IMG/VR virus record: IMGVR_UViG_3300020601_000026
Location: 1 to 39,397 of that record
Direction: 5' to 3' (one strand)
Length of the DNA: 39,397 bases
DNA from: a virus
Shown here: positions 1-37,526 of the stretch, piece by piece
Layout of the letters: every line of letters starts with the position of its first letter
Numbering within the stretch: position 1 is the stretch's first letter
Notes under the pieces: generated by a model
The model's database searches: none
The model's input: only the letters and a program-made list of their open reading frames with translations
Told to the model about the DNA's origin: nothing
Translations under genes and position numbers: made by a program

Positions 1-1947
1 GATATCGTTACGGGTTGGAATACTCGTCTATTCGATATTCCTTATCTTGTCAATCGTATCGCTCGTATCATGGGTGATGACATGGTCAAAAAGCTATCGC
101 CTTGGGGTGTAGTTCAGTACCGTAAGATTGCGGTCAAGGGTAAGGAACTCGATACATACGAAATGTATGGTATCTCTCAACTTGACTACTATGACCTGTT
201 TCAAAAGTTTGGTTATTCGTATGGCGCACAGGAATCATACAAGCTTGACCATATCGCTCATGTTGTACTAGGCGAGCGTAAGTTGTCCTACGAGGAACAC
301 AGTTCGCTTCATGCCTTGTACAAACACGACTTTCAAAAGTTCATTGATTATAACATCAAGGACGTAGAGTTGGTTGACCGTCTTGAGGACAAGATGGGTC
401 TGATTACTCTCGCACTTACTATGGCCTACAAGGCTGGTGTCAACTATCAGGATACTTTTGGAACAACTATGATTTGGGATACGATCATCTATCGTGATCT
501 TGCAGCTAAGAACATTGTTCCACCTCCATCAACCGACAAGTTCAAAGCTGACTATCCAGGTGGTTACGTGAAGGAACCTCAAGTAGGTCTTCACGAGTGG
601 GTTTGTTCATTCGATCTAAACTCGCTGTATCCCAACATCATTGTTCAATGGAACATGAGTCCAGAGACAATCATCGAGGGTATGACTGAACCGGACATTA
701 ATCCGGACACGTGCCTTGATGGCGCAAGCAATCCTAACTCCAATATGGCTCTAGCCGCAAACGGAGTTTACTTCTCTAAGGAACGTCAAGGTATCATTCC
801 TGCCATCATTGTTCAGTACTACGATGAGCGTAGGCTCGTCAAGAACAAAATGCTCGAGGCAAAACAATTACTTGAGCAGGCTGATAAGTCTGATAAGCAA
901 AGGATCTATGAGATCGAACGTGACATCAGTCATTACGAAAACCAACAAATGTCAATCAAGATTCTTATGAACTCTCTGTATGGCGCACTTGGTAATCGTT
1001 ACTTCCGTTACTTCGATCTCCGTGTTGCTGAAGCAATCACGCTGTCAGGTCAACTTGCAGTTCGTTGGGCAGAGAAAACGGTTAACCTCCGTATGAACCA
1101 ACTACTTAAGACTGACAACTTTGATTATGTTATCGCTATTGATACTGATTCGTTGTACATCAACTTTGGTCCGATGGTCAATAAGTTTGAGCCTAAGGAT
1201 CCCGTTGCGTTTCTTGATGAGGTATGTAAGGGTGAGTTCGAAAAAGTACTTGCAGAATCGTATGATGGTCTGTTCAAACAGTTCGCGTGTTACACTAATC
1301 GTATGGAGATGGGTCGTGAGGTAATCGCTGACCGTGGCATATGGACCGCTAAGAAACGTTACATTCTAAACGTACACAACAACGAAGGTGTTCAATACGC
1401 TGAACCTAAGCTCAAGATCATGGGCATCGAGGCAATCAAGTCATCAACACCATCCGCTTGTCGTGAAGCACTCAAGGAATTGTTCAAGGTTATCGTAAGT
1501 GGTTCTGAAACAAAAACTCAACACGCCATTCAGTCGTTCAAGGAATACTTCTCAACCCTTAAGCCTGAGGAGGTATCATTTCCACGCGGTGTATCCGATA
1601 TCGCAAAGTGGAAGGACAGTAAAACCATCTATAAGAAAGGCTGTCCAATCCATGTTCGTGGCGCATTGTTATATAATATGGCAGTCAAGGACAAGGGTCT
1701 TGACAAGAAGTACACCATGATTCAAAACGGAGAGAAGATTAAGTTCTGCTATATGAAGGTACCTAATCCTATCAGAGAAAACGTAATCTCTTTCCCAGAC
1801 TATCTGCCTGCCGAGTTACAACTTGAAAAGTACATTGACTACGATAAGCAGTTCGAAAAAACATTCTTGGATCCAATCATTCCAATTCTTGATGCGGTTG
1901 GCTGGAATCCCGAGGATACACAAACACTAGAAGACTTTTTTGCATAG
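1..1947 (+). CDS. 43: Family B DNA polymerase, T4 gp43-like (5' end missing)
   Basis: Replicative DNA polymerase with 3'-5' proofreading. The reading frame is open from base 1, so the gene starts upstream and the N-terminal part with the Exo I motif is outside the window. Visible motifs in order: Exo II (TGWNTRLFDIPYL, residues 4-16 of the fragment), Exo III (YNIKDVELVDRL), Pol motif A (SFDLNSLYPNII), motif B (KILMNSLYGALGN) and motif C (IDTDSLYIN, with the two catalytic aspartates). These match phage T4 gp43 and the family B signature. All three polymerase motifs are intact, so the enzyme should be active. The next gene follows after 9 bases, with AGGAG before its ATG. Identification is secure; only the missing N-terminus limits it. 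Confidence 0.97.
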   Translation, partial: DIVTGWNTRLFDIPYLVNRIARIMGDDMVKKLSPWGVVQYRKIAVKGKELDTYEMYGISQLDYYDLFQKFGYSYGAQESYKLDHIAHVVLGERKLSYEEHSSLHALYKHDFQKFIDYNIKDVELVDRLEDKMGLITLALTMAYKAGVNYQDTFGTTMIWDTIIYRDLAAKNIVPPPSTDKFKADYPGGYVKEPQVGLHEWVCSFDLNSLYPNIIVQWNMSPETIIEGMTEPDINPDTCLDGASNPNSNMALAANGVYFSKERQGIIPAIIVQYYDERRLVKNKMLEAKQLLEQADKSDKQRIYEIERDISHYENQQMSIKILMNSLYGALGNRYFRYFDLRVAEAITLSGQLAVRWAEKTVNLRMNQLLKTDNFDYVIAIDTDSLYINFGPMVNKFEPKDPVAFLDEVCKGEFEKVLAESYDGLFKQFACYTNRMEMGREVIADRGIWTAKKRYILNVHNNEGVQYAEPKLKIMGIEAIKSSTPSACREALKELFKVIVSGSETKTQHAIQSFKEYFSTLKPEEVSFPRGVSDIAKWKDSKTIYKKGCPIHVRGALLYNMAVKDKGLDKKYTMIQNGEKIKFCYMKVPNPIRENVISFPDYLPAELQLEKYIDYDKQFEKTFLDPIIPILDAVGWNPEDTQTLEDFFA

Positions 1948-1956
1948 GAGAATATT

Positions 1957-2379
1957 ATGAGCAAAGATTGGGTAAAAGATATCAATGAAATGCACGCTAA
2001 GTATGGCGTTCATAAGTGGATGCAAGCACAGATGCAATCCGACGTGGATTGGAAGGTTCTTGATGAGTTCCTTAAGTTCCGTCTAAAGTTTCTTGATGAA
2101 GAATTGAACGAAACGAAAAAAGCAGTCGTTGAGCGAGATCCTGAAGAGATCGTTGACGGTTTAATTGATCTATGCGTTGTTGCGATTGGTACACTGGATG
2201 CTTTTGGCGTGGATGCGCATAAGGCATGGGATGAGGTTCACCGAGCCAACATGGCAAAAGAACCAGGTGTTAAAGAAAGCCGTCCTAATCCATTGGGTCT
2301 ACCTGACTTAATCAAACCTGAAGGATGGACTGCTCCAAGTCATGAGGACAATCATGGAAATCTCGCTAACGCTGTTTAA
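1957..2379 (+). CDS. MazG-like nucleotide pyrophosphohydrolase
   Basis: A 140-residue all-alpha NTP pyrophosphatase candidate (MazG/HisE/dUTPase superfamily). The metal-binding helices are visible as EELNE near residue 48 and EIVDGLIDLCVVA near 65-77, giving the ExxE...ExxD pattern of the fold. The C-terminal phrase HRANMAKEP followed by KPEGWTAPS is also typical of phage MazG/PRA-PH-like proteins. The family removes the terminal diphosphate from (d)NTPs. Its place between the polymerase and other nucleotide-pool enzymes suggests trimming of the dNTP pool. In T4 a dCTPase (gp56) does this when cytosine is replaced; that role here is inference. AGGAG sits 7 bases before the ATG. Confidence 0.8.
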   Translation: MSKDWVKDINEMHAKYGVHKWMQAQMQSDVDWKVLDEFLKFRLKFLDEELNETKKAVVERDPEEIVDGLIDLCVVAIGTLDAFGVDAHKAWDEVHRANMAKEPGVKESRPNPLGLPDLIKPEGWTAPSHEDNHGNLANAV

Positions 2380-3283
2380 CAGCATATTCGATAACAAGAC
2401 GGATAAACGTATGGACCTCAGCTCGTGGGAAGAGTTTGAGAATCTTTTGTACGGGTTATCCGCAATTGAAAGAGAAGGCAAGAAAGATGCGCAACTTATA
2501 TCACCTGCTACTTATGTGGTTGACTCAACTAGGGCCAACGCGAATGTTGTTGATTGGGGAGGTTGGGCTGCTGTTGATGTTGATGACCACAATTTTAATG
2601 GGCAGCTAAAGGATGAGCTATTTAGTAGGTTTGGTAGTCATTACTACATTTGCTATAGTACTGCAAGCAGTAAAGACGATTTCCCAAAGTTTCGGCTCGT
2701 CTTCCCACTTACAACTAAGGTTGAACAATCTAGAATCAAACACTTTTGGTTTGCCCTCAACGAAGAGCTCGGACGCATCGGAGATGGGCAGACTAAGGAC
2801 TTATCTAGAATGTATTACATCCCTGCAAGCTATGCTGGCGCTAACAACTTTATCTTTACTAATGTTGCTGGTAGTTGGATTAATCCTATGGAACTTATGA
2901 ATAAGCATCCTATGGTTGAGAAACAAGGTAAGACGTTTCTTGATAGACTACCTGAGTCAATCCAAAAGGAAGTCATTAATCACCGCAAATCAAAGATGGA
3001 GAACACTAGCATAACATGGCAGAGTTACAATGACTGTCCGTTCGTTAACAAAAAACTCGTTGACGATTATAAGGCAATCAATGGAACTGGTTGGTATCAT
3101 ACGATGTATCGTTTAATGGTATCAATCGCCGCAAACGCAGTTCGCCGTGAGTATCCTATCACGGCTCATGAGGTAGCAGTACTCTGTCGAGAGCTTGACG
3201 CAGAGACAGGTCATTGGTACCAAGGTCGTTCTTTCGAGGTCGAAGCGGATCGTGCTATCGAATTTGTCTATAAAAATATGTAA
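2354..3283 (+). CDS. Primase-polymerase-like (AEP-type) replication protein
   Basis: About 309 residues. The N-terminal half has AAVDVDD (an acidic DxD-like pair), then KFRLVFPLT, then DLSRMYYIPASY, an order that recalls archaeo-eukaryotic primase/BT4734-like domains of phage replication proteins. The C-terminal part (GWYHTMYRLMVSIAANAVRR...) resembles a PriCT-type helical domain. I infer a priming or replication role; no helicase Walker motif is present. ATG 2354 is chosen because GAGGA lies 5 bases upstream; an in-frame ATG at 2342 is possible. The gene overlaps the MazG-like gene by 26 bases. T4 uses the unrelated DnaG-type primase gp61, so this would be an additional or replacement enzyme. 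The family call is moderate. Confidence 0.5.
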   Translation: MEISLTLFNSIFDNKTDKRMDLSSWEEFENLLYGLSAIEREGKKDAQLISPATYVVDSTRANANVVDWGGWAAVDVDDHNFNGQLKDELFSRFGSHYYICYSTASSKDDFPKFRLVFPLTTKVEQSRIKHFWFALNEELGRIGDGQTKDLSRMYYIPASYAGANNFIFTNVAGSWINPMELMNKHPMVEKQGKTFLDRLPESIQKEVINHRKSKMENTSITWQSYNDCPFVNKKLVDDYKAINGTGWYHTMYRLMVSIAANAVRREYPITAHEVAVLCRELDAETGHWYQGRSFEVEADRAIEFVYKNM

Positions 3284-3911: not shown

Positions 3912-4228
3912 TGAAATACGACGAAGGTAAACCAAAGATCCATCTAGTACCACCCGAGGCAATCATCGAGGCTGCACGGGTTTTTGGCTTTGGTGCAGAA
4001 AAGTATGGTGAGAATAACTGGCGCAAAGACATACATAAGTTCCCTGTCTCGCGACACTATTCATCCATTCAACGCCACTTGATGGCTTATATGATGGGAG
4101 AGAATGATGATCCTGAAAGCGGTCTTCCACATCTGTCTCACGCCTTGACTCAAATGATGATTCTTATCATGACGACTCAAGAAGGTGATCCCGAAACAAC
4201 TGATGACCGTTTTAAGGAGAGTGAATAA
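3911..4228 (+). CDS. dATP/dGTP diphosphohydrolase-like protein (DUF5664)
   Basis: 105 residues matching the phage family annotated as dATP/dGTP diphosphohydrolase, N-terminal (DUF5664). Signature pieces: YDEGKPKIHLVPPEA at the start, FGAEKYGENNW, SRHYSSIQRHLMAYMMGEND and DPESGLPHLSHA. The conserved H/E/D residues fit an all-alpha NTP pyrophosphohydrolase. Such enzymes alter the dNTP pool. Relatives occur in 2-aminoadenine (Z-genome) phages, but no PurZ-like gene is present here, so a Z genome should not be inferred. It overlaps both neighbours by one to four bases, indicating translational coupling with the gene at 4228. Confidence 0.8.
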   Translation: MKYDEGKPKIHLVPPEAIIEAARVFGFGAEKYGENNWRKDIHKFPVSRHYSSIQRHLMAYMMGENDDPESGLPHLSHALTQMMILIMTTQEGDPETTDDRFKESE

Positions 4229-4890
4229 TGATCTTACCTACCGTAAAGGATATTCGTCAATTCTTTATTGATGAACTTAATGATGAAGCGTATACTATCG
4301 ACAAGACAGGTCAAAAAACCATTGAAATGCTTGGCGCAAGTTTCCTTGCTACTGAACCTGCTATCTTTGGTAAACCAGTGCAAAGTTATATTGATGCTGA
4401 GTTGGATTGGTACGAATCTCAATCCACCAACATTTTTGATATACATGGTGATGATAAGGAACCACCTGCAGCATGGAAGTATGCGGCCAACCAACACGGA
4501 GAAATCAATTCAAACTATGGGCATTTGATTTTCTCTGAAAAGTATAATCGTCAATACGATTCAGTGCTAGGCGAGTTGTCGGACAGTCCTGATGGCCGTC
4601 GTGCTACTATGATCTACAACAGACCGTCAATCTGGGCTGAATACAATGAGAACGGAAAGTCAGACTTTATCTGCACCAACGCTGTTACTTATTATATTCG
4701 CAATGATGAACTGCAGGCTGTTGTTCAAATGAGATCCAATGATGTTGTCTTTGGATACAAAAACGATTATGCATGGCAACAACACGTACTTGAAATGTTG
4801 GCCGATGACCTTGAGATAGCTCCAGGCTTTATTACATGGCAGGTTCAAAACCTTCATGTGTATGAACGCCACTTTGATCTGGTAAAATGA
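4228..4890 (+). CDS. Thymidylate synthase-family protein, probable dCMP (hydroxy)methylase
   Basis: A 220-residue member of the thymidylate synthase/dCMP hydroxymethylase family. The catalytic Cys is C149, exactly 20 residues before R169 of the RSND motif (same spacing as C146-R166 in E. coli ThyA). The motif QNLHVYERHFDL near the C-terminus matches the nucleotide-binding DxHxYxxH region. At the position of ThyA Asn177, which selects dUMP, this protein has Asp180 (GYKND). Asp there is known in dCMP hydroxymethylase (T4 gp42 Asp179). A complete ThyX at 14415 can make dTMP, so a distinct role is likely. I infer 5-hydroxymethyl- or methyl-dCMP synthesis. Asn179 next to Asp180 leaves some alignment doubt. 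It overlaps the upstream gene and is followed at once by dCMP deaminase. Confidence 0.8.
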   Translation: MILPTVKDIRQFFIDELNDEAYTIDKTGQKTIEMLGASFLATEPAIFGKPVQSYIDAELDWYESQSTNIFDIHGDDKEPPAAWKYAANQHGEINSNYGHLIFSEKYNRQYDSVLGELSDSPDGRRATMIYNRPSIWAEYNENGKSDFICTNAVTYYIRNDELQAVVQMRSNDVVFGYKNDYAWQQHVLEMLADDLEIAPGFITWQVQNLHVYERHFDLVK

Positions 4891-4891
4891 G

Positions 4892-5353
4892 ATGAGTGCT
4901 GATTGGGATAGAAGATACCTAGCACTGGCTAAAGAGATATCTAGTTGGTCAAAGGATCCGTCAAGAAAGATTGGCGCAGTCGCGGTTGGAACTAAAGGTC
5001 AAGTTTTGGCTCAAGGCTACAATGGATTCCCTCGTGGAATCGCAGACAGTCGTGATCGTTATAACGATCGCCCTGTCAAGTATAAGTATGTTGTTCATGC
5101 TGAGATGAACTGCATATATAATGCTACTTATAATGGTGTATCGCTTGACGGTTCAATTATGTACGTATGGGGATTACCTATGTGTTCTGATTGCGCCAAA
5201 GGTGTTATACAAGTTGGAGTGAAACACGTCCTCTGGGGTACGGATATGCTTATCCCAAAAACCTGGGTGGACTCTTTGGAAGATACTACAGATATGTTTA
5301 GAGAGGCTGGTGTGAAAATTACTTGTTTACATTCGCCAGGATCTGTGGTATAA
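4892..5353 (+). CDS. cd: Deoxycytidylate deaminase
   Basis: 153 residues. The zinc-dependent deaminase signature is complete: HAE at residues 69-71 (His ligand and catalytic Glu) and PMCSDC at 96-101 (Cys98 and Cys101 ligands). N-terminal KDPSRKIGAVAV and GYNGFPRG match dCMP deaminases such as T4 Cd. The enzyme converts dCMP to dUMP for thymidylate synthesis and, in T4, balances dCMP between dTMP and hydroxymethyl-dCMP. It begins one base after the stop of the TS-family gene, without a strong Shine-Dalgarno, so translation is probably coupled. The next promoter is buried in its 3' end, and the TATAAT box supplies its TAA stop codon. Confidence 0.92.
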   Translation: MSADWDRRYLALAKEISSWSKDPSRKIGAVAVGTKGQVLAQGYNGFPRGIADSRDRYNDRPVKYKYVVHAEMNCIYNATYNGVSLDGSIMYVWGLPMCSDCAKGVIQVGVKHVLWGTDMLIPKTWVDSLEDTTDMFREAGVKITCLHSPGSVV

Positions 5354-5354
5354 T
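5326..5354 (+). promoter_or_regulatory. Sigma70/early-type promoter inside the dCMP deaminase 3' end
   Basis: TTTACA (5326-5331), 17-bp spacer ending TGTGG, TATAAT (5349-5354). The TGG before the -10 box forms an extended -10. Expected transcription start is about 5361, only about 3 bases before the ATG at 5364, so the mRNA would be essentially leaderless. Confidence 0.8.
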
Positions 5355-5363
5355 AACTATGTT

Positions 5364-5834
5364 ATGGAAAATTGTACTGACGTAATATTCATTGGCATGC
5401 AGCCATCAAAAGCGCGGTTTCGTAAGAACTGCGCTATTGACCGTTTTAGTATATGGATGGAGAAACTAGGTATCAACTGTGTTACCTTTCAGAACGCAAT
5501 CACTGATGTGGATCTTCCGCAAAAGGTAACATCAGCTGATTTCCAAATGCTATATAGATGTGTACAAGGATACAACAAAGTTGTTGCCCTTGGCGCACTG
5601 TCATCGCAGATACTAAAAACGATGGGTATACCACACTTTCGTATGCCACATCCGTCGCCTAGAAATCGTTTGCTGAACGATAAGGCATATGAAGAAATGA
5701 TGTTAATTGAACTCAGGAGTTATATTGATGGTGAACCTAGTGATTCCGGCAGCTGGAGCAGCTACGAGGCTGCGTCCACTTTCGACAAATACCTCAAAGG
5801 TAATGGTTCGAGTCAACGGCAAGCCATGCCTTGA
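5364..5834 (+). CDS. Uracil-DNA glycosylase superfamily-like protein
   Basis: 156 residues. Residues 7-15 (VIFIGMQPS) resemble the UDG-fold motif 'GxNPS', and residues 74-102 run VVALGALSSQILKTMG then HPSPRNR, similar to the C-terminal DNA-intercalation HPSP motif of UDG families 4-6. The known catalytic Asp/Asn is not obvious, since residue 13 is Gln, so it may bind or process another base or be a non-catalytic relative. It sits inside the candidate base-modification cluster. No Shine-Dalgarno precedes the ATG, and the promoter is only about 10 bases away. The last 36 codons overlap the next gene in another frame, so the tail is probably not conserved. Confidence 0.65.
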   Translation: MENCTDVIFIGMQPSKARFRKNCAIDRFSIWMEKLGINCVTFQNAITDVDLPQKVTSADFQMLYRCVQGYNKVVALGALSSQILKTMGIPHFRMPHPSPRNRLLNDKAYEEMMLIELRSYIDGEPSDSGSWSSYEAASTFDKYLKGNGSSQRQAMP

Positions 5835-7206
5835 CTATATAATCGAACACGCAAACAAGATGGCTGATATCGATGAGATCGTTGTTGTTGACGGTCAGTT
5901 TAATGATATTCGTGAGTACTGCTCTCGTCGTCATCCAAAAGTTAAAGTGGTGAATCAACCCTCTTTGGATGGACCTCGTGATGCCATATCCATCGGTATG
6001 AATGCACTTAAGGATCCTAATAAACCCGTTGTTGTTTGGTTAGGCGATGCAATCATTCTTGATGAATCCATGAATCTTGGCGAGGACTTCTTACTATGTA
6101 AAGAGGTAAAGAACCATTCTGACTGGTGTATGTGGGACGGTAGTACGTTCTATAATAAACCTACGCAGAACGTCACGGATGGTGTGGCACTGGTTGGCCT
6201 ATATTCGTTTAAGAATGGTTCACATGCTCAGATGGCCTTTTCGTCAACTGATGAATATGATATCTCTCATGCCTTGACCTTGTACGGTAAGTTTGACAAA
6301 GTACTTACAGATAAGTGGTACGACATTGGTGATCTACCAACGTATTACCAAACGTGTGCATCTCTTCTTGATATGAAATCGCGTGAGTTCAATCGTATGA
6401 TATACGACCACGATCTAGGTACACTGACAAAGACTCCTGACTATCATAACAAAGAATCAGTACTTACGTTAACGTGTGAGCGGTTATGGTACAATGGATT
6501 ATCCTTTGAGCAAAAGTGTTTCGTACCACGAGTGTTTAACGATGGTCAGAATATCGTTATGTCATTTGAGTCAGGTACGTTGCTTTCTGATTTAATGTTG
6601 TACGAGAATCTTAGTGAATCCGCATGGGAATATATCGTTGATAAGTTGTTTCGTATTAAGCTAAACTATTTTAGCACACGCTGTTCGGATCGAAACTTCA
6701 CTGATAAGTTTGCTGAGCAAGCAGACAAAATCTGGTTGGATAAGACCAATAAAAGACTTAAGAACACTGACCTGCCACCTAAACTTCAGAGCAAGATTAG
6801 TTCAATGGCATGGCGTGTCTGCAGGAATACATATCCTATTGAGTGTATGCACGGAGATCTTCATTTCGGCAATGTACTATACAATCAGCAAACGGATCAA
6901 ATGAAACTAATTGATCCTCGTGGCCGTTATGGTAACGAAATTGGTACTGAAGGTGATAATCTATACGACTGGGCTAAACTTGCTCACGATCTATATCATG
7001 GGTACAACGCAATGGTCGCTGATGTAAAACATAACGAGTTAGTAAAGCGAATCTTCGTTCAGAAACTCCATGAATACAATCTTCCTGTTGATGATATCAT
7101 TAATGGTGGTTTGGTACTACTAGCAACGTGCATCCCACTTCATTATGATGACAGTGAGAGACAACAAAGGTTTCTTAACTACGTAAAGGAATATAATTAT
7201 GACTGA
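5728..7206 (+). CDS. Fused sugar-type nucleotidyltransferase and APH/choline-kinase-like kinase
   Basis: 492 residues, two domains. Residues 1 to about 230 form a nucleotidyltransferase: PAAGAATRLRPLS is the GxGxRxxP NTP-binding loop, VVVWLGDAI the metal/substrate strand, and KWYDIGDLPTYYQT the typical C-terminal motif. Residues from about 240 form a small-molecule kinase: CMHGDLHFGNVLY (HGDxHxxN catalytic loop) and LIDPRGRYG (the DxD/DFG-like metal site). Such pairs phosphorylate and NTP-activate sugars, choline-like or polyol compounds. With the HAD phosphatase next door this looks like synthesis of an activated group donor. ATG 5728 is chosen for the CAGGAG 9 bases upstream; TTG 5707 is a less likely start. 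The substrate is unknown. Confidence 0.85.
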   Translation: MVNLVIPAAGAATRLRPLSTNTSKVMVRVNGKPCLDYIIEHANKMADIDEIVVVDGQFNDIREYCSRRHPKVKVVNQPSLDGPRDAISIGMNALKDPNKPVVVWLGDAIILDESMNLGEDFLLCKEVKNHSDWCMWDGSTFYNKPTQNVTDGVALVGLYSFKNGSHAQMAFSSTDEYDISHALTLYGKFDKVLTDKWYDIGDLPTYYQTCASLLDMKSREFNRMIYDHDLGTLTKTPDYHNKESVLTLTCERLWYNGLSFEQKCFVPRVFNDGQNIVMSFESGTLLSDLMLYENLSESAWEYIVDKLFRIKLNYFSTRCSDRNFTDKFAEQADKIWLDKTNKRLKNTDLPPKLQSKISSMAWRVCRNTYPIECMHGDLHFGNVLYNQQTDQMKLIDPRGRYGNEIGTEGDNLYDWAKLAHDLYHGYNAMVADVKHNELVKRIFVQKLHEYNLPVDDIINGGLVLLATCIPLHYDDSERQQRFLNYVKEYNYD

Positions 7207-7570
7207 TACAATTGTTTTTGATCTTGATGATACGATCTGCTATCCTAACTTAGACCAACCTGACACAAAGCAGCGGTATGGTAATGCACAGCCAAACGGT
7301 CGTGTGATATCCATCATGCAAAGGTTAAAGGCAAAGGGATACCACATCATCATCCACAGCGCACGAAGAATGGTCACACATAATGGTGATATAGATAAAA
7401 TTGAGAACGATGTTGGTCAAGTAACTAAGGATTGGCTAAAGTTCTACGGTGTACCATACGATGATCTAATCTTTGGTAAACCATACGCCTCAACGTACTA
7501 TGTTGACGATAAGGCAATGAACCTAAAGCAACTATATGAATGGGTAAGCGATGAAGATAGCAATAGGTAA
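7199..7570 (+). CDS. HAD-superfamily phosphatase, capsule-biosynthesis type
   Basis: 123 residues. Motif I is FDLDDTICYP (residues 7-16, nucleophile Asp and acid/base Asp), motif II is IIHSARR near residue 54, and YYVDDKAMN near residue 101 is motif IV. There is no large cap domain, so substrates are probably small phosphates. Similar short HAD proteins occur next to nucleotidyltransferases in capsule and LPS loci, where they remove a phosphate during NDP-sugar synthesis. It overlaps the upstream kinase/nucleotidyltransferase by 8 bases and the next gene by 20, indicating a coupled pathway. AAGGA lies about 7 bases before the ATG. Substrate not inferable. Confidence 0.85.
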   Translation: MTDTIVFDLDDTICYPNLDQPDTKQRYGNAQPNGRVISIMQRLKAKGYHIIIHSARRMVTHNGDIDKIENDVGQVTKDWLKFYGVPYDDLIFGKPYASTYYVDDKAMNLKQLYEWVSDEDSNR

Positions 7571-8807
7571 GGTCGGAAAGTCAATTCTATTCGACTCAAA
7601 CAAATGGGGTGCAATCGGCGGAGACAATGAGGCACCTATCTTTTACGAAAATCTGTTTCACAACAACCCTGACGTAGATTTCTATCTCGTTGGGGTATCT
7701 GACTTTACACGGTTGGATCGTAAGGAACAGGAACGTATCAATAAGCACGGTAATGTTCACGATGTTTGGGAACACTTTAATCATTGGCGTAAGACATACG
7801 ATGGCGACGAGCGTGGCGAGCGTATCTTTTATATGCAGGATTGGATGAAGAATCTATCACCTAAGTTTGATGCAGGCCTTTTCTTTATGGGTCCAACCGC
7901 AACATCAAACGTATGGGGTAAGGCACGTAAGGTAACCGAACCTGATAAACTCGCTTCACCACTTATGATGCAATGTAAGTATGCAGGTCCTGTGGTTGAC
8001 TTTATCAATGAAACCGGAATGCCATACGCAATCATCCTAAACGATCCACGATTCTTCCCAGCTCAAATGCGGGATCTTTTCCATAGACCACAGGTTATCT
8101 TGAGTCAGTATACCGAAGAGATCAACCACCGTGCCTGGAAGGCCTATACTGATATGGAGATGACTCATGTTAAAATACCTGCCGAATATAAAGCAATGGA
8201 AACAATCTTCCTCATTGGTAAGGAAAGAGGTAAAGCCATCGTTGATACTCCATCTACTCTGGATTCATTCTTCACTGATGCGGTAGAACGTAAGCCGGGT
8301 GAGAAGGACATTAACTTTATGATCGTATGTAACGAGGGTAGACCATCACGGTACAATGATCTCAAGAAATACATCCTCGATAACGTAGAGGAAGTGGACA
8401 TCTATGGTAAGTGGGACGAGCGAACGATTGGCGAGGATCCGCGATTCAAAGGTCCAAAGAAGTTTAATGATCTGCAGGAAATGCTTCCACGAGTTAAGTA
8501 TACGTTCTGCATTCCAATCAAGAAGGGTTGGGTAACCGCTAAGTTCTGGGAGATGGCCCACTATGGTATTATCCCTTTCTTACATCCAACATACGACGAA
8601 CAAGACAACCTTAAGTGTCCAGAGTTTTTAAGAGTAACGGATTCTGCTGACTTGTTCAAAAAAATTCAGTTCCTTGAGGACAATCCTGAAGCATACGAAA
8701 CACTAAAGGGCAATATCGAAAGCATGCTTAAGGATGAATACTACGATGGGTCGTATCTCAACGATCTTGCCATGAACACGCTGAAGGAGATTACAGCACA
8801 TGAATGA
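7551..8807 (+). CDS. Glycosyltransferase-like protein (GT-B type), candidate DNA-base glycosyltransferase
   Basis: 418 residues, soluble. The N-terminal half begins KIAIGKVGKSILFDS and contains DAGLFFMGPT and YAIILNDPRFF, as in an acceptor-binding Rossmann domain. The C-terminal half, VDIYGKWDER, FNDLQEMLPRVKYTFCIP, KGWVTAKFWEMAHYGIIPFL, followed by a helix with EDNPEAYETL, looks like the nucleotide-sugar-binding half of GT-B enzymes. T4 alpha- and beta-glucosyltransferases for hydroxymethylcytosine have this fold. The exact family is not recognised and DNA as acceptor is inferred only from the neighbours: an activated-donor synthase just upstream and a cytosine-C5 methyltransferase-like protein just downstream, all overlapping. 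An alternative is modification of a host glycan. Confidence 0.6.
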   Translation: MKIAIGKVGKSILFDSNKWGAIGGDNEAPIFYENLFHNNPDVDFYLVGVSDFTRLDRKEQERINKHGNVHDVWEHFNHWRKTYDGDERGERIFYMQDWMKNLSPKFDAGLFFMGPTATSNVWGKARKVTEPDKLASPLMMQCKYAGPVVDFINETGMPYAIILNDPRFFPAQMRDLFHRPQVILSQYTEEINHRAWKAYTDMEMTHVKIPAEYKAMETIFLIGKERGKAIVDTPSTLDSFFTDAVERKPGEKDINFMIVCNEGRPSRYNDLKKYILDNVEEVDIYGKWDERTIGEDPRFKGPKKFNDLQEMLPRVKYTFCIPIKKGWVTAKFWEMAHYGIIPFLHPTYDEQDNLKCPEFLRVTDSADLFKKIQFLEDNPEAYETLKGNIESMLKDEYYDGSYLNDLAMNTLKEITAHE

Positions 8808-10032
8808 TATTACTTATGGTTCGATCGTTCCACTTATTGGTGGCGAGAACTTTGGAATTATGAAATCACTTGAGGGTCAATTACCAGAGTGGGTACTTTC
8901 GTACACTGACTTTGCTAAGAACGATGCTCATTTTATTAACCATCTTAAAGAGAAGGATTGGAAAGGTGAATATGTTTTCCTTAATGAAGAGGGCAACGAA
9001 GGATACAAGGCTAAAACCGTTGATGTGGTTAATACTGTTTGCCCTTGTGCTGGACTTAGTTCTCTCTCCGTTTCATCATCTGCAGATTCTGCAGTAAACG
9101 AATGGATGTATACGACTTCGGAATATGTTCTTAGTGAGATTAAGCCTAAGGTATTCTGGGGTGAGAACGCACCTCGTCTTTATACGAAGGCTGGTGAAAA
9201 GGTTGCCAATCGCCTGTATGAAATTGGTAAGCAGCATGGTTACTCGCTTAACTTGTATTACACAGAGTCCAGACTACACGGTTTGGCCCAAAAGCGACCA
9301 CGTACGTTTTACTTCTTTACGAAGGGTACTGACAGCGCACCGTTGTTTAGGTATATCCGCCGTCCTCTTGAAAACATCGAGGATATTCTTAAAGCGGATA
9401 TTAGTCCTGACGATCCTATGAACCGTTTGATTAACTCAGACAATCCGATGGATAATCCTTGGGTTGCTTACTGCGTTCACAAGTCAGGATCAAAGACACT
9501 TGCTGAATATTACGAAAAGATTGAGAAGACGACCAACTGTATCGTATCATCCGATAACATTTCAGATAACCTAAACGAGGTTGCTGATTGGATGGAACAA
9601 CAGGGGTTTGACCAAAAGTTCGCTGACCGCGCTCGAGCAATGCAAGAGAAGGTCGACGGAGGTAAGGGTTATTGGGCACACGGTGTCACAATGCCAAAGG
9701 GGGAAATCCCATCATTGATTGGCGCAATGCCACACTCACTGATTAATCCATTCAAGGAGCAGTTCTTGACTCTACGTGATGCGCTTCGTATCATGAAGAT
9801 GCCGGATGATTTCAATATGATTGGCGATAATCCTCAATCGCCAGGAAACGCAAATGCTATCTGTCAGAACGTCCCAGTGACTACTGCGGCTGATATGATG
9901 GACTTTGTAGTTGAGTACTTAAAAGGTATGACTGATACGGTATCAAGTGATTATGTTAGACAGAACAATTCTAGCATGAAGCATGAGATCGTTAATGAAG
10001 ATCTTGTAGAGCTTGACCAATTTTTTGTATAA
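8800..10032 (+). CDS. Cytosine-C5 DNA methyltransferase-family protein
   Basis: 410 residues. Recognisable motifs: I (YGSIVPLIGGENFG, residues 6-19), IV with the catalytic Cys (TVCPCAGLSS; PCQ replaced by PCA), VI (WGENAPRL in place of ENV), VIII (GLAQKRPRTFYF) and a final region NANAICQNVPVTTAADMM equivalent to motifs IX-X. Motif I is degenerate compared with DLFAGxGG, so the cofactor site may be altered. The family methylates C5 of cytosine in DNA; phages may use such enzymes for protection or as the first step of a hypermodification. It overlaps the glycosyltransferase-like gene by 8 bases and ends the cluster. Activity and sequence specificity cannot be read from sequence alone. Confidence 0.75.
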   Translation: MNDITYGSIVPLIGGENFGIMKSLEGQLPEWVLSYTDFAKNDAHFINHLKEKDWKGEYVFLNEEGNEGYKAKTVDVVNTVCPCAGLSSLSVSSSADSAVNEWMYTTSEYVLSEIKPKVFWGENAPRLYTKAGEKVANRLYEIGKQHGYSLNLYYTESRLHGLAQKRPRTFYFFTKGTDSAPLFRYIRRPLENIEDILKADISPDDPMNRLINSDNPMDNPWVAYCVHKSGSKTLAEYYEKIEKTTNCIVSSDNISDNLNEVADWMEQQGFDQKFADRARAMQEKVDGGKGYWAHGVTMPKGEIPSLIGAMPHSLINPFKEQFLTLRDALRIMKMPDDFNMIGDNPQSPGNANAICQNVPVTTAADMMDFVVEYLKGMTDTVSSDYVRQNNSSMKHEIVNEDLVELDQFFV

Positions 10033-10116: not shown

Positions 10117-11178
10117 ATGTCTATAATGGATAAACTTAAAAAGAACTCAAAGATCAAGGAGACCTCGGTTCTCTCTGACTCAAAGTTCTTTTCTGAAAAA
10201 GATCAAACACCAACCGAGGTTCCGATGGTGAACGTTGCCCTGTCAGGTAATCCTGATGGTGGCCTTGCATCTGGTCTGACTGTCCTCGCTGGTCCATCAA
10301 AACATTTTAAGACTTCGTTCGCATTGCTTATGGCTGCAGCGTATCTTAAAAAGTATCCTGATGCAGTAATGCTGTTTTATGATTCTGAGTTTGGCTCACC
10401 GCAGGCATACTTTGAAACATTCGGTATTGATACGTCACGGGTACTACACACGCCAATCACTGATGTTGAGAAACTGAAGTTTGATGTGGTTGGTCAACTT
10501 GAACAACTATCACGAGGCGATCGTGTGATCGTCGTTATTGATTCGGTTGGTAACCTTGCATCTAAGAAAGAACTAGAGGATGCAATCAACGAAAAGTCAG
10601 TCGCTGATATGTCTCGAGCAAAAGCACTAAAAGGTTTGTTCCGTATGGTTACACCATACCTTGCTATGAAGAACATTCCAATGCTTGCGGTCAACCATAC
10701 TTATCAAGAGATTGGTTTATTTCCTAAGGCTATCGTTTCAGGTGGTACGGGTATTTACTATTCAGCTGATAACATTTGGATTCTTGGCCGTCGTCAGAAC
10801 AAGACAGGTACCGAGGTAACAGGATATGACTTTGTGATTAACGTGGAGAAATCACGATATGTTAAAGAAAAGTCAAAGATTCCTATTTCGGTTTCTTGGG
10901 ACGGTGGCATCGAGCGGTATAGCGGTCTTATGGATGTTGCTGTTGCTGGCGGTTATGTTGTTAAGCCTTCTAATGGTTGGTATGCACATGTTGATCGATC
11001 TAATGGAACGTTTGAAGGAAAAAAATACCGAATGGCGGAATCCATGACTGCAGACTTTTGGGATCCTATCTTTGAGAAAACTGACTTCAAAGAATTCCTA
11101 ATTAAGTCTTATACGATTGGCCATAAATCAATGTTTGATAGTATTGCACTGGAGATGGATGATGCAGCATCTGATTGA
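10117..11178 (+). CDS. uvsX: UvsX RecA-like recombinase
   Basis: 353 residues. The Walker A loop is AGPSKHFKTS (residues 58-67), matching the unusual GPSKSFKS loop of T4 UvsX. Walker B is VIVVIDSVGNL, and VNHTYQEIG lies in the expected place of the DNA-binding loops. UvsX catalyses strand exchange in recombination-dependent replication and repair. It is first in its own transcript from the promoter at 10038, with TAGGAG upstream of the ATG; a second in-frame ATG four codons later is possible. The order uvsX, small gene, gp41 helicase parallels T4 (uvsX-40-41). Confidence 0.95.
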   Translation: MSIMDKLKKNSKIKETSVLSDSKFFSEKDQTPTEVPMVNVALSGNPDGGLASGLTVLAGPSKHFKTSFALLMAAAYLKKYPDAVMLFYDSEFGSPQAYFETFGIDTSRVLHTPITDVEKLKFDVVGQLEQLSRGDRVIVVIDSVGNLASKKELEDAINEKSVADMSRAKALKGLFRMVTPYLAMKNIPMLAVNHTYQEIGLFPKAIVSGGTGIYYSADNIWILGRRQNKTGTEVTGYDFVINVEKSRYVKEKSKIPISVSWDGGIERYSGLMDVAVAGGYVVKPSNGWYAHVDRSNGTFEGKKYRMAESMTADFWDPIFEKTDFKEFLIKSYTIGHKSMFDSIALEMDDAASD

Positions 11179-11521: not shown

Positions 11522-12866
11522 TGACGACTTCACTCGTAAGGTAATTCCGTTCATTCGGAAGGACTACTTCGAGTCGGATCATCGTCTAATATTTGATCAG
11601 GTTATTTCTTTCGTTGACAAGTACAACAAGTTACCAACACCGGAAGCTTTAGAGATTGAGCTTTCGTCATTGGACGTTAATGATGCATTACTTGTTGATG
11701 CGTCAACCGTACTTAATGGTATCCGCGCAACTAAAGACAATGAAGTGGATACTGAATGGCTTGTTGACGAGACCGAAAGGTGGTGTCAGGATCGCGCAAT
11801 ACATCTTGCGATCATGGAATCTATAAATATAATTGAAGGCAAGCATAATTCATTAAAGAAGGACGCATTACCAAAACTCTTATCAGATGCGCTTGGTGTA
11901 ACATTTGACTCAAGCGTAGGTCACGATTACATCAACGATGCAGAAAAGCGATTTGATTTCTACCACACGGTTGAGGATCGTATCCCGTTTGATCTAGAGT
12001 ACTTTAACTCCATCACCAAAGGTGGATTACCCCGCAAAACATTAAACATCGCACTCGCTGGCACAGGCGTAGGTAAATCCCTATTCATGTGTCATGTTGC
12101 AGCTAACGCCTTAACACAAGGAAGAAACGTACTTTACATTACAATGGAAATGGCTGAGGAACGTATCGCAGAACGTATCGATGCTAACTTGATGAACTTG
12201 CCTATCGACCAATTAGAAACTTTGCCTAAGGAAATGTTTGACAACAAGATCACGAAGATCGCACAGAAGAACATCGGCAAACTAATCATAAAGGAGTATC
12301 CTACTGGTGCTGCTCACACGGGACACTTTAGAGCCCTACTGAATGAACTGAAGCTGAAGAAAAACTTCATGCCTGATATGATCTTTATTGATTATTTGAA
12401 TATTTGTAGTAGTAGTCGGATGAAAGGCCTTGGCGGATCAATCAATACCTACTCACTCATTAAGTCAATCGCAGAAGAAATCAGAGGACTCGCAGTCGAG
12501 TTCAATGTACCAATTATCTCAGCGACTCAGACAACTAGAAGCGGATTTGGAAACAGCGACGTTGGGCTGGAAGACACGTCTGAATCATTTGGACTACCTG
12601 CTACAGCTGACTTCATGTTTGCGCTCGTCTCAACCGAAGAACTCGAAAAGCTTGGACAGATAATGGTCAAGCAGTTAAAGAATCGCTACAACGATCCTAC
12701 TGCAAACAAACGATTTGTTATTGGGGTCGATAGATCTCGTATGAAATTATATGATGTAGAAGAAGACGCTCAAACACTCATGGACGATGGCCCTGCCTTT
12801 GATAAGTCAACGAGTGGTGAGAGGGTCAACAGTGAGAAGAGAAACTTTAATGATTTTAAGGTATAA
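11475..12866 (+). CDS. 41: Replicative DNA helicase, T4 gp41/DnaB family
   Basis: 463 residues. Walker A is GTGVGKS (196-202), Walker B MIFIDYLNI, and the DnaB-family strand VPIISATQTTRSGF follows. The N-terminal region (IPFIRKDYFESDHRLIFDQV) aligns with the start of T4 gp41, which supports the TTG start at 11475, preceded by CGGAGAG. The protein is a hexameric 5'-3' helicase that works with the primase and polymerase at the fork. The start overlaps the upstream gene by 47 bases. A TATAAATA sequence at 11822 is inside this gene and is not thought to be functional. Confidence 0.95.
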   Translation: MEQKIQTTILRNLINNDDFTRKVIPFIRKDYFESDHRLIFDQVISFVDKYNKLPTPEALEIELSSLDVNDALLVDASTVLNGIRATKDNEVDTEWLVDETERWCQDRAIHLAIMESINIIEGKHNSLKKDALPKLLSDALGVTFDSSVGHDYINDAEKRFDFYHTVEDRIPFDLEYFNSITKGGLPRKTLNIALAGTGVGKSLFMCHVAANALTQGRNVLYITMEMAEERIAERIDANLMNLPIDQLETLPKEMFDNKITKIAQKNIGKLIIKEYPTGAAHTGHFRALLNELKLKKNFMPDMIFIDYLNICSSSRMKGLGGSINTYSLIKSIAEEIRGLAVEFNVPIISATQTTRSGFGNSDVGLEDTSESFGLPATADFMFALVSTEELEKLGQIMVKQLKNRYNDPTANKRFVIGVDRSRMKLYDVEEDAQTLMDDGPAFDKSTSGERVNSEKRNFNDFKV

Positions 12867-13371
12867 CGATAGCTATCCTATAATGGAAGGCGCAGGTCAG
12901 CGGGCAATCGCTGATATGATTGAAAACATTTTCGTTGAGGATATCGTAGATCAGGGTGGGGTTAAACCACAGTCAGTCAGAACCATTGAGGATGTATCAC
13001 TTGATGGTGTCCTTATAGATATTAAAACGAAGGACGTTGATCGTAGTTTCTCTATGCCTAATCTTATTTCGATTGATAGGCTACGAAAAAATTTTGATAG
13101 AACCATACGATACGTGTTTATTGATTACAGCGTTAATGATAACGAAGTAAGCATCGTTGGTGTTACCACCAAGGACATACATGAGATTCCTTGGGATTGT
13201 CTAGCGATCCAAAACCTTGGATTAGGACAATTGCAGTTAGCAAAAGATATTGGCTCTGCGGTATATAACGGAACGAAAGAAGAATGGTTTGATCAGCTTA
13301 AGGCTGAATCATACTCGTTTTATGAAAAGCAAATCGCTAAGTTTGAAAAAAAGAAGAAGGAATTATTATGA
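12850..13371 (+). CDS. Putative PD-(D/E)xK-fold nuclease
   Basis: 173 residues from ATG 12850, which overlaps the helicase end by 17 bases. GAGQRAIADMIENIF provides an N-terminal helix, and DGVLIDIKTKD near residues 54-64 is a convincing D...DxK nuclease core; IRYVFIDYSV and VSIVGVTT are later strands, and WDCLAIQNLG follows. The lysine-rich C-terminus (KFEKKKKELL) could contact DNA. I infer an endonuclease, perhaps for recombination or host DNA breakdown; the exact family is unknown. The Shine-Dalgarno is weak, so translation probably depends on coupling to the helicase gene. Confidence 0.6.
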   Translation: MILRYNDSYPIMEGAGQRAIADMIENIFVEDIVDQGGVKPQSVRTIEDVSLDGVLIDIKTKDVDRSFSMPNLISIDRLRKNFDRTIRYVFIDYSVNDNEVSIVGVTTKDIHEIPWDCLAIQNLGLGQLQLAKDIGSAVYNGTKEEWFDQLKAESYSFYEKQIAKFEKKKKELL

Positions 13372-14167: not shown

Positions 14168-14424
14168 GGTACACGTTTAAGAATCGCTACGGTGACACTA
14201 TGTCTATCGTAGAAATAGATAAATCAACCCTTTTATGGAGAGGATCCCATAACCACGAAAGGATCTCGTGTAACGAGGCTGGGACGATCACAATGGTCGA
14301 CCCGTCAGGAGGGCCATATATTTGTGAAGGGCAAGACATCGGTTTGGACTATCCCCCTTGGAAAGGCCGAATCGTTGACCACTTTCAGCATCATGAAGAA
14401 GGATACTTAATTTTATGCAGGTAA
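14143..14424 (+). CDS. Hypothetical protein
   Basis: 93 residues, soluble and beta-rich in appearance: RYTFKNRYGDTMSIVEIDKS, LLWRGSHNHERISC, then a Pro/Gly-rich stretch (DPSGGPYICEGQDIGLDYPPWKG) and a His-rich end (DHFQHHEEGYLILC). No family recognised. AAGGA stands about 8 bases before the ATG. It overlaps both neighbours (25 and 10 bases) and lies directly before thyX in the same transcript. Confidence 0.6.
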   Translation: MVDTKEEVRYTFKNRYGDTMSIVEIDKSTLLWRGSHNHERISCNEAGTITMVDPSGGPYICEGQDIGLDYPPWKGRIVDHFQHHEEGYLILCR

Positions 14425-15113
14425 GACTAATCGGTTATACTCAACCCGTAGCGGATGCGATCATTGGAATAGATGATGTTCAGGATTTGATCGCGTACTG
14501 CGCCAGAGTCTCTAACCCAGATAATCAGCTGAATCAGAAAACAGCGAAAAAGCTGTTGAACTATTTGGCCAAACATAAGCATTGGTCTCCCTTTGAGATG
14601 GCGTCAGCAACGATGGAGATCGAAACGACTCGTGACATCGCACGTCAGATCTTGCGACACCGTTCCTTTTCGTTTCAAGAGTTTAGTCAGCGATACGCGG
14701 ATCCTACCCAGGATCTTAGTTTTGTAAAACGAGAAGCAAGATTACAGGATCCTAAGAACCGACAGAACTCGGTAGACATCGAAAGCGATCCTTCCCTTGT
14801 GGATAACGTAAAGAATCAGGAACTGATCGCGGAGTGGGGTCGCCGACAAAGCGGTATCATTGAACTGGCAAAGAAACACTATCGTTGGGCTGTAGAGAAT
14901 AACATCGCAAAGGAACAGGCTCGTGCGGTACTACCTGAAGGCCTAACAGTTTCTAGGATGTATATGAATGGAACCATACGGTCTTGGATCCACTTCATTG
15001 AACTGCGATCAGGAAACGGAACACAAAAGGAGCACATGGAGGTCGCTAAGGCTTGCGCAAAAGCAATCGTAGAAATCTTCCCATTGGCCAATGAATACAT
15101 TTCTTCTAAATAA
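14415..15113 (+). CDS. thyX: Flavin-dependent thymidylate synthase ThyX
   Basis: 232 residues. The ThyX motif RHRxxSxxExSxRY is complete at residues 81-94 (RHRSFSFQEFSQRY). Further family features are YCARVSNPDNQ near residue 28, HWSPFEMASATMEI near 56, and ARAVLPEGLTVSRMYMNGTIRSW. The enzyme makes dTMP from dUMP using FAD, methylene-tetrahydrofolate and NADPH. It takes the dUMP produced by the dCMP deaminase. Its presence means the TS-family protein at 4228 is not needed for dTMP and is free to act on dCMP. Confidence 0.95.
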   Translation: MQVRLIGYTQPVADAIIGIDDVQDLIAYCARVSNPDNQLNQKTAKKLLNYLAKHKHWSPFEMASATMEIETTRDIARQILRHRSFSFQEFSQRYADPTQDLSFVKREARLQDPKNRQNSVDIESDPSLVDNVKNQELIAEWGRRQSGIIELAKKHYRWAVENNIAKEQARAVLPEGLTVSRMYMNGTIRSWIHFIELRSGNGTQKEHMEVAKACAKAIVEIFPLANEYISSK

Positions 15114-15861
15114 TACTAAGAATTACCACAAAGGCTGTGAAGTCGTTGCCGAGTATCTTATAAATAAATACGGCGTATCTGATTGGAGATACACTCGAGA
15201 TCAACTTGAGGATATCGACTTCAGTAAGTATGACCGCGTCGTCCTAAACGGCGAAGGTACGCTTCATCACAATACTCGTTCAGCTCGAAGACAACTAACA
15301 GCCCTGAGGTTAGCCCAGTATGCAGGATGCGAAACTCATCTTGTCAATACTGTGTGGCAAGAGATGCCTAACACTTGGGATGACGTACTCGCCAACTGTA
15401 AATCCGTTCAAGTAAGAGAGGTACTATCACAATATGAAATGTCGTCTAAACATGGAAGACTACCTACAGTTGCTCCTGACTGTAGCTACCTTCATAACGA
15501 TGTGGCTGTCCGTGAGTTCGCTCACGTAGCAGTCTACGAAGGCCAATATATGAAGGCCAATCCATACGGGGTTCAAGGCGGCTATCCTCGTATCGATATA
15601 TTTAGTCAAACGTGGGAAGAGATCGTTAACCGTTTACGTAACTGCGATTTACTTATCACTGGTAGACATCATGAGATGTATGCCGCCTGTGTAGCAGAGT
15701 GTAGATTTCTTGTGACTCCTGGTAACACCTGGAAGAACCAAGGATTGTTGAAATCAGCTGGTGTGGATATACCGTTCGACGTAGATGGAGCCCTTTCGGG
15801 CAAATACGACGATCAGTATAACCGTTTGTGGGATTATTTAAGGTCCTTTAGAACTAAATAA
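15091..15861 (+). CDS. Polysaccharide pyruvyltransferase-like protein
   Basis: 256 residues. The N-terminal half has VVLNGEGTLHHN (residues 50-61), like the GxGxxH loop of the CsaB/WcaK pyruvyltransferase family, and the C-terminal half has CDLLITGRHHEMYAACVAECRFLVTPG then WKNQGLL, the typical donor-binding motif. Such enzymes transfer pyruvate from PEP to sugars or act as related glycosyltransferase-like proteins. In a phage this is unusual; it could add to a DNA-linked sugar or alter the host surface, both inference. It overlaps thyX by 23 bases with no Shine-Dalgarno, and is followed by a strong terminator. Confidence 0.65.
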   Translation: MNTFLLNNTKNYHKGCEVVAEYLINKYGVSDWRYTRDQLEDIDFSKYDRVVLNGEGTLHHNTRSARRQLTALRLAQYAGCETHLVNTVWQEMPNTWDDVLANCKSVQVREVLSQYEMSSKHGRLPTVAPDCSYLHNDVAVREFAHVAVYEGQYMKANPYGVQGGYPRIDIFSQTWEEIVNRLRNCDLLITGRHHEMYAACVAECRFLVTPGNTWKNQGLLKSAGVDIPFDVDGALSGKYDDQYNRLWDYLRSFRTK

Positions 15862-16010: not shown

Positions 16011-16039
16011 GGTACTATCAAATGGAAGGAAACTATGTT

Positions 16040-16378
16040 ATGATTAAGATTTACCAAATTCAACTGACCGAAGATCAAGTCAACCTTATCAATGAAACTG
16101 GCGACCACAACTCGGTTCCAGCTCAAAAGGCTAAGCTTGATGCTTCTATCCTTGGCAAGTTCGCTGCCGAAAACTTCAAGTTCTACACTGAGGCATATCA
16201 TGTCTACAGCGACGATCTTGAGGAAGCCTTCGAGGCAACCAATCTTTGGAACAAGCAAGAGATCGTGGACGTAATCGGAGATCGTGGTTACAGTTCATCA
16301 ACTGGCGATATCTTTGAGAAGAACGGTGAGTTCTTCCTTTGCGCCAACTTCGGATTCAATCAAGTGGAGGTAGCATAA
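16040..16378 (+). CDS. Hypothetical protein with YodL-like C-terminus
   Basis: 112 residues. MIKIYQIQLTEDQVNLINETG leads into a helical part (LDASILGKFAAENFKFYTEA), then DDLEEAFEATNLW and a C-terminal segment DRGYSSSTGDIFEKNGEFFL. The last piece, with its SxSxGD followed by a short hairpin, resembles the YodL-like 'HSxSVGDV' tail of small phage and plasmid proteins. Function unknown. ATG 16040 is chosen for AAGGA 9 bases upstream; an in-frame ATG at 16022 forms part of the shared leader and would add MEGNYV. Confidence 0.75.
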   Translation: MIKIYQIQLTEDQVNLINETGDHNSVPAQKAKLDASILGKFAAENFKFYTEAYHVYSDDLEEAFEATNLWNKQEIVDVIGDRGYSSSTGDIFEKNGEFFLCANFGFNQVEVA

Positions 16379-17356: not shown

Positions 17357-17385
17357 GGTTATATCAAATGGAAGGAGAATACATT

Positions 17386-17718
17386 ATGTTTCAACAAGTA
17401 AATACTAAAGCCCGCAGTTCCAAGGATTATCTTGGATCAATCTATGCTGCCGATGCGGCCGGCATGCTTCAACTCGAAGATCTTCGTCGTATGGTTAAGA
17501 ACTTGAATACCGATCTTCGTAAATTCGGTGCCACTGATTCTAAAGGTAACGCCATTCAGTTCCGAGTACGAGTCTGTGGTCGTGAACCTATTGAGACTGG
17601 AACCGCTACGCATTGGCTCTTTGGTACCGCAAAGGGTCGTAAGTACGACTGGGGCGGTAACTGCATCGGCGGTTTAGCTAACGCTTCTCGTTTTGATATC
17701 TACCTCTATAGGAGATAA
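17386..17718 (+). CDS. Hypothetical protein
   Basis: 110 residues, basic. The helical N-terminal part (DYLGSIYAADAAGMLQLEDLRRMVKNLNTDLRKFG) is followed by a beta-rich region (IQFRVRVCGREPIETGTATHWLFGTAKG) that ends FDIYLYRR. No known motif. ATG 17386 is preceded by AAGGAG at 8 bases; the ATG at 17368 lies in the shared leader and would add MEGEYI in frame. Confidence 0.72.
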   Translation: MFQQVNTKARSSKDYLGSIYAADAAGMLQLEDLRRMVKNLNTDLRKFGATDSKGNAIQFRVRVCGREPIETGTATHWLFGTAKGRKYDWGGNCIGGLANASRFDIYLYRR

Positions 17719-37497: not shown

Positions 37498-37526
37498 AGT
37501 ACTATCAAATGGAAGGAGAATATATT

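Follow-up and report, generated by a model that had tools for sequence, protein, structure and literature searches.

Among T4-like phages, T4 itself makes glucosylated 5-hydroxymethylcytosine (hmC) with gp42, BGT and AGT, using UDP-glucose taken from the host. The RB69/Mosigvirus phages, which are also T4-like, have an arabinosyl-cytosine system (ORF055c, ORF53_52c and 051c; PMC6024577; PMC13390438), and the modification of RB69 and NP, first reported as arabinosyl-hmC, is now described as 5-arabinosyl-deoxycytidine built on 5-hydroxy-deoxycytidine (PMC13390438). In Shewanella phage Thanatos, which carries deoxypentose-cytosine, inactivation of TH1_060 almost abolishes propagation (PMC12838424). 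Here we describe a gene cluster at 4228-10032 of a 39.4 kb IMG/VR fragment (record IMGVR_UViG_3300020601_000026; the whole fragment is called the window below) of an uncultivated T4-like phage, most of whose genome lies outside the fragment. Judging from the sequence, we think it likely that this cluster is a hypermodification operon, which makes hmC and its own activated donor, and attaches the donated group to DNA.

Seven co-directional open reading frames (ORFs) are packed on the plus strand of the cluster, with short overlaps or nearly so, and all were present as a first-pass annotation of this DNA had delineated them (Table 1). That annotation had proposed a cytosine hypermodification cluster. 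The proposal is well supported, because the cluster encodes a T4-type hydroxymethylase and a glycosyltransferase (GT) whose model comes nearest, at fold level, to T4 BGT, and because the same slot in relatives holds known DNA transferases. The same gene order turns up in dozens of other contigs, and the arrangement is therefore not due to chance. At the DNA level, a search of the named phages gave nothing beyond short gp42 matches.

The first gene encodes a thymidylate synthase (TS)-like protein, likely to be a deoxycytidine monophosphate (dCMP) hydroxymethylase of T4 type with 5-hydroxymethyl-dCMP as its product. In a profile search with this protein and ten relatives, T4 dCMP hydroxymethylase (1b49) matched at 1.8e-101, and the next groups of the TS superfamily were 9iqc/9iqu (4e-15) and the thymidylate synthases (about 1e-13). 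9iqc and 9iqu agree in sequence with the gp42-like protein encoded by Shf125875, an RB69-type phage; the T4 type is thus favoured over the RB69-type 5-hydroxy-dCMP synthase, the E-values lying more than 80 orders apart, and the latter identity was rejected on this comparison. The dCMP-type Asp noted in the first-pass annotation proved to be general, as Cys149 and the dCMP-selecting Asp180 (T4 Cys148 and Asp179) are kept in 52 of 52 TS-like sequences. A separate ThyX supplies thymidine monophosphate, which leaves the TS-like gene free to act on dCMP.

Two upstream pyrophosphatases had been suggested to strip deoxycytidine triphosphate (dCTP), and one of them survives as a candidate. The MazG/PRA-PH-like protein, whose position after the polymerase is conserved in relatives, is a candidate dCTP-stripping enzyme, dCTP being its predicted substrate. 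The ORF at 3911-4228 matches the N-terminal domain of dATP/dGTP diphosphohydrolases (PF18909, 8e-29), and most relatives do not have it; it is therefore a poor candidate, and an unlikely dCTPase. The label of uracil-DNA glycosylase (UDG)-like protein given to a small ORF of the cluster fared less well. There was no Pfam or PHROG match and the best Protein Data Bank (PDB) profile had an E-value of 0.56, so that no UDG family profile supports the label, which reflects motif likeness only. The protein is an accessory found in some relatives.

Next in the cluster are a fused nucleotidyltransferase–kinase and a HAD phosphatase. The nearest PDB entry to the fusion is LicC CTP:phosphocholine cytidylyltransferase (1.5e-8), and its kinase half carries HGDxxxxN ... 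DPRG motifs, with catalytic residues conserved in an alignment of 16. The ORF starts with ATG at 5728, with a TTG at 5707. The fusion is homologous to the ORF53_52c relative of Shf125875 (1.2e-12), and the HAD protein to those of Enterococcus phage 9183 (7e-30) and, as the 051c relative, of RB69-type phages (8e-6). In Shf125875 both homologues sit between gp43 and uvsX, as in the window, near a TS-family dCMP enzyme. T4, which lacks donor genes and a C5-methyltransferase-like protein, was named by the first-pass annotation as the closest known case; we conclude that this does not hold for donor synthesis. Nor are such genes without precedent, since RB69-type phages carry homologues and Thanatos a homologous kinase fusion. 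The RB69-type systems nevertheless differ from the window in that their TS-family enzyme makes 5-hydroxy-dCMP, in having arabinose-5-phosphate isomerase and U32-peptidase-like genes where the window cassette has no such isomerase, and in the absence from their slot of a homologue of the window GT and of a C5-methyltransferase-like (C5-like) gene. Thanatos TH1_060 is homologous to the RB69 nucleotidyltransferase–kinase and is accompanied by a TS-family dCMP enzyme, but the phage has a different pyrophosphorylase, and a direct O-link to cytosine has been proposed for it (PMC12838424).

A phage-made activated donor, as first suggested, is in agreement with the occurrence of these genes near an Asp-type TS in several phages. 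They lie beside it in RB69-type phages, Enterococcus phage 9183 and Pseudoalteromonas phage XG4. The latter two combine Asp-type TS, HAD protein and nucleotidyltransferase–kinase with a homologous GT (29-34% identity); XG4, a cultured phage, also has a C5-like gene, which is absent from the annotated stretch of 9183. Our literature search found no paper on XG4, and no published chemistry for either phage. Bacillus phage G (gp301-gp313) has a separate nucleotidyltransferase (309), HAD protein (310) and kinase (311), a C5-like protein (301) and alpha-GTs (306, 313), with an Asp-type TS in the same genome at 233 kb; it differs in being a jumbo phage with split genes and a different GT family. In many relatives the donor set beside the same GT is replaced by a HAD–kinase fusion and a TagD-like cytidylyltransferase (PF01467). 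The kinase domains of the two fusions are homologous (hhalign 96.8%), and the HAD–kinase–nucleotidyltransferase logic therefore outlasts a change of nucleotidyltransferase fold. CTP is the usual substrate of LicC-like and TagD-like enzymes, and a CDP-linked donor is for this reason a reasonable, if unproven, guess.

The GT gave a weak Pfam match (0.005), no match to AGT, TAGT or BGT in Pfam, and no sequence match in the PDB. Its AlphaFold model (pLDDT 84), a structure prediction of the kind that the first-pass annotation had advised, was searched against the PDB. T4 BGT occupied ranks 1-6 (E 3e-7 to 1e-6), at template modelling (TM) scores of 0.41-0.56 that place the likeness at the level of the fold only, and TagF was found at rank 46. 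When 84,980 cellular species genomes were scanned for the GT, a single match came up; the 28 kb contig that carries it belongs to a Flavobacteriaceae metagenome-assembled genome and has the same phage backbone. The window GT occupies the slot of known DNA transferases, which favours a DNA-transferase role, and we regard it as a probable DNA-hmC transferase on the strength of model and position.

Relatives were contigs found by similarity to the GT, the nucleotidyltransferase–kinase or the C5-like protein, with at most 80 taken per scan. Dozens of them share the order polymerase, MazG-like protein, 2342-3283-type protein, hydroxymethylase, dCMP deaminase, slot, C5-like protein and uvsX. At least six donor or transfer cassettes alternate between the dCMP deaminase and C5-like genes: the nucleotidyltransferase–kinase; HAD–kinase with TagD; DNA alpha-glucosyltransferase (AGT, PF11440); TET-associated glycosyltransferase (TAGT, PF20691); UDP-sugar dehydrogenase/epimerase; and a 5-hydroxymethyluracil (hmU)-DNA-kinase-like protein (PF18723), which comes with inositol-phosphate synthase. 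When cassette type is mapped on a tree built from 77 C5-like proteins, at least 15 changes are required. The presence of AGT, TAGT and hmU-kinase-like proteins, together with these repeated swaps, identifies the slot as a site for DNA-hypermodification cassettes. Independently, the TS, PRA-PH and dCMP deaminase domains (PF00303, PF01503 and PF00383) were seen by MetaGPA to co-occur in contigs selected for modified cytosine (PMC8670742).

Individual relatives illustrate the range of cassettes. The slot of L084 (1227-5633) and L085 holds a myo-inositol-1-phosphate synthase, a HAD-like protein, a PF18723 helical domain, an FkbM methyltransferase and an unassigned protein, and an inositol-based DNA modification is possible there. 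L066 (5416-8721) and L075 carry there ribulose-phosphate 3-epimerase, SIS isomerase, HAD-like protein and nucleotidyltransferase–kinase, followed by GT and C5-like genes, which amounts to an arabinose route of RB69 type. In L102 (1434-4874), UDG-like protein, AGT-family DNA glucosyltransferase, epimerase and UDP-sugar dehydrogenase form a cassette for a phage-made donor of UDP-uronate/pentose type.

Hypermodification itself has precedent; the new feature of the locus is its C5-like protein, with a rewritten S-adenosylmethionine (SAM) site. The C5-methyltransferase fold anticipated for it was matched by the model (DNMT1, MET1, HhaI, CmoX). In all 84 aligned homologues, Cys83, Glu122-Asn123, Gln164, Arg166 and Arg168 are invariant (PC, ENx and QxRxR motifs), motif III Asp is mostly kept and motif IV is mostly CPCAGLS. 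By contrast, motif I A-G-x-G-G has become P-L-[I/V]-G-G in 145 of 145 distinct proteins, the motif X Asn is Gln in 83 of the 84, and the SAM-contacting Glu (ribose) and Trp (adenine) are not conserved. Alignment with M.HhaI and with the database sequence of the canonical Anabaena phage A-1(L) enzyme gives an identical register; motifs IV-X were confirmed against M.HaeIII and CmoX. The first-pass label of C5-cytosine methyltransferase-like protein thus holds for fold and catalytic motifs; with the SAM-binding motifs altered, 'methyltransferase' is a doubtful name, and we place the protein in the pathway provisionally, by its context. An Asp-type TS is present in 55 of 55 C5-like loci with enough upstream sequence, the cyanophage S-TIM5 branch included, and in L100 (927-3749), which has hydroxymethylase, dCMP deaminase and C5-like genes, no cassette separates the deaminase from the C5-like gene. 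The C5-like protein therefore goes with the Asp-type TS and not with the sugar.

It is improbable that the window encodes an arabinose-type system as in RB69/Mosigvirus, in which the TS-like enzyme would make 5-hydroxy-dCMP and the sugar would be placed directly on the ring O5. Such a route would account for the homologous nucleotidyltransferase–kinase and HAD protein in the same slot of RB69-type phages, where the product is 5-arabinosyl-deoxycytidine (PMC13390438), and it has a counterpart in the epimerase, SIS isomerase, nucleotidyltransferase–kinase and GT of the L066/L075 slot; yet the TS-like protein is far nearer to the T4 hydroxymethylase, the window cassette lacks an isomerase and the GT resembles T4 BGT. 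Still less probable, in our view, is that the hydroxymethylase alone concerns DNA, and that donor genes and GT serve to make a surface glycan of the host or to modify a protein. Capsule synthesis often employs GT-B folds, and homologues of the nucleotidyltransferase–kinase occur in bacteria too (PMC6024577), but the slot is equivalent to that of AGT, TAGT and the hmU-DNA kinase, the link to an Asp-type TS is constant, and the same pairing recurs in unrelated phages. Since, among the 84,980 cellular genomes, the GT was found on one phage-like contig only and the slot holds known DNA transferases, a capsule or lipopolysaccharide pathway was rejected. The outcome that the first-pass annotation had named as fatal to its proposal, donor genes that serve such host sugars in every relative, is contradicted by this distribution of the GT and by the place of the donor genes near an Asp-type TS in the phages named above.

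As for the C5-like protein, the most novel possibility, in our view less likely than not, is that it represents a new class of enzyme that acts, without ordinary SAM, on hmC already in DNA. Its Cys might then activate the C5-CH2OH so that it can be exchanged, removed or joined to another group, and the protein could perhaps be the part that stays constant in a modular phage system whose sugar-donor cassettes are swapped. No natural enzyme devoted to reactions of this type on hmC is known to us. C5-methyltransferases can, in vitro, release or derivatise the hydroxymethyl group of hmC without SAM (PMC11347137; PMC7176277). That the protein is instead a standard SAM-dependent methyltransferase whose motifs have diverged, and that it methylates residual cytosines, seems unlikely to us: it would explain the fold, the kept PC, EN and QxRxR motifs and the mostly kept motif III Asp, but not the replacement of motif I A-G by P-L in 84 of 84 homologues or the changed motif X and SAM contacts, particularly as the canonical Anabaena enzyme in the same alignment retains the ordinary SAM residues. 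There is also little probability that it uses a modified SAM such as carboxy-SAM, in the manner of CmoX of Synechococcus phage S-B43. CmoX (8yf3) is the second-best profile match and a strong fold match, and is likewise a C5-methyltransferase fold repurposed for phage hypermodification with motif X Asn changed; however, it needs a motif X Arg (Arg350), keeps the Phe that stacks on adenine and the Glu that binds the ribose of SAM, and acts on unmodified C in GC sites (PMC12783734). The C5-like protein has Gln and neither contact, and no CmoA is found among the annotated cassettes, a genome-wide search not having been made. Lacking the motif X Arg, the SPPC motif and the Phe/Glu contacts, it was excluded from the CmoX family.

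Several points weigh against the hypermodification operon. The match of the GT to BGT has a TM score below 0.6 and 12% identity, in a GT-B fold that capsule enzymes also use, and the identity of the donor cannot be read from sequence. A gp56-type dCTPase (dUTPase_2, PF08761) was not found in the eight records searched, and deoxynucleoside monophosphate kinase of T4 gp1 type gave weak matches in two of seven larger relatives (170 kb and 107 kb). The RB69-type homologues of the donor genes serve arabinose on 5-hydroxycytosine, not hmC. Finally, the relatives share ancestry and were chosen by similarity, and their counts are therefore not independent trials.

From the protein families, active-site residues and recurrent gene order we infer a pathway in which each reaction, the donor and the function are proposals. 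The hydroxymethylase, with its T4-type active site, would convert dCMP to 5-hydroxymethyl-dCMP, the MazG-like enzyme would probably remove dCTP, and the phage polymerase would copy hmC into DNA. The HAD phosphatase may strip phosphate from a host metabolite, which the kinase half would re-phosphorylate at the activating position and the nucleotidyltransferase half join to a nucleotide, probably CMP or UMP, to give a sugar or polyol linked to a nucleotide. From this donor the GT-B enzyme would transfer the group to the hydroxymethyl that hmC carries in the DNA. In the least certain step, the C5-like protein, as constant partner of the hydroxymethylase outside the swappable cassette, may flip out and covalently activate cytosine or hmC without ordinary SAM. 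The modified DNA would presumably be shielded from restriction and CRISPR nucleases.

Table 1. Features of the window, with the evidence for each assignment.
Feature	Position	Strand	Evidence
Family B DNA polymerase, C-terminal two thirds; left-hand landmark	70..1947	+	Shf125875 polymerase match
MazG/PRA-PH-type nucleotide pyrophosphohydrolase	1957..2379	+	PF01503 1.5e-12; phrog_671 5.9e-26
Protein with no assigned function	2342..3283		Kept in shared gene order of relatives
Likely dCMP 5-hydroxymethylase, T4 gp42 type, TS-like	4228..4890	+	Pfam TS 4e-17; T4 1b49 profile 1.8e-101
dCMP deaminase	4892..5353	+	PF00383 2.4e-17; phrog_174 1e-41
Small protein, UDG-superfamily-like motifs GxxPS ... HPSP.NR	5364..5834	+	Alignment A4
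Fused LicC-like nucleotidyltransferase and small-molecule kinase	5728..7206	+	NTP_transferase PF00483 8.4e-14
HAD phosphatase of putative donor pathway	7199..7570	+	PF25109 (HAD_PNKP) 1.7e-6; phrog_1238 7.8e-19
GT-B glycosyltransferase, probable DNA-hmC transferase	7551..8807	+	AlphaFold model; fold search; slot position
C5-methyltransferase-fold protein	8800..10032	+	PF00145 (DNA_methylase) 3.5e-13; fold match; motifs
UvsX recombinase; right-hand slot landmark	10117..11178	+	53% identity to UvsX of Shigella phage Shf125875
ThyX thymidylate synthase	14415..15113	+	PF02511 3.9e-43

The polymerase aligns with residues 234-901 of the Shf125875 enzyme (33% identity, 1e-100). In L012 and L026-L030, uvsX is in two or three pieces roughly 1 kb apart, which suggests an intron or intein. 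Elsewhere in the window, a polysaccharide pyruvyl transferase-like protein (15091-15861; PF04230, 1.5e-5) overlaps the end of ThyX, a SegE-type GIY-YIG homing endonuclease lies at 31768-32208 (PF19835, 2.5e-38), and the HincII-like endonuclease match at 12787-13371 is weak and below cut-off (PF09226, 0.0012). Three near-copies of ATGGAAGGARAMTAYRTTATG (16022-16042, 17368-17388 and 37509-37529; 0.02 expected) stand at the starts of small ORFs, and probably represent a common ribosome-binding leader and not a coding sequence.

Hypermodified bases are one of the main means by which phages evade restriction and CRISPR, and newly found ones make useful tools. Marine and other uncultivated T4-like phages commonly carry this slot, which offers a genome-mining rule for new DNA modifications. 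It also raises the question of why a methyltransferase-like protein, its SAM site rewritten, should be the constant companion of the Asp-type TS.

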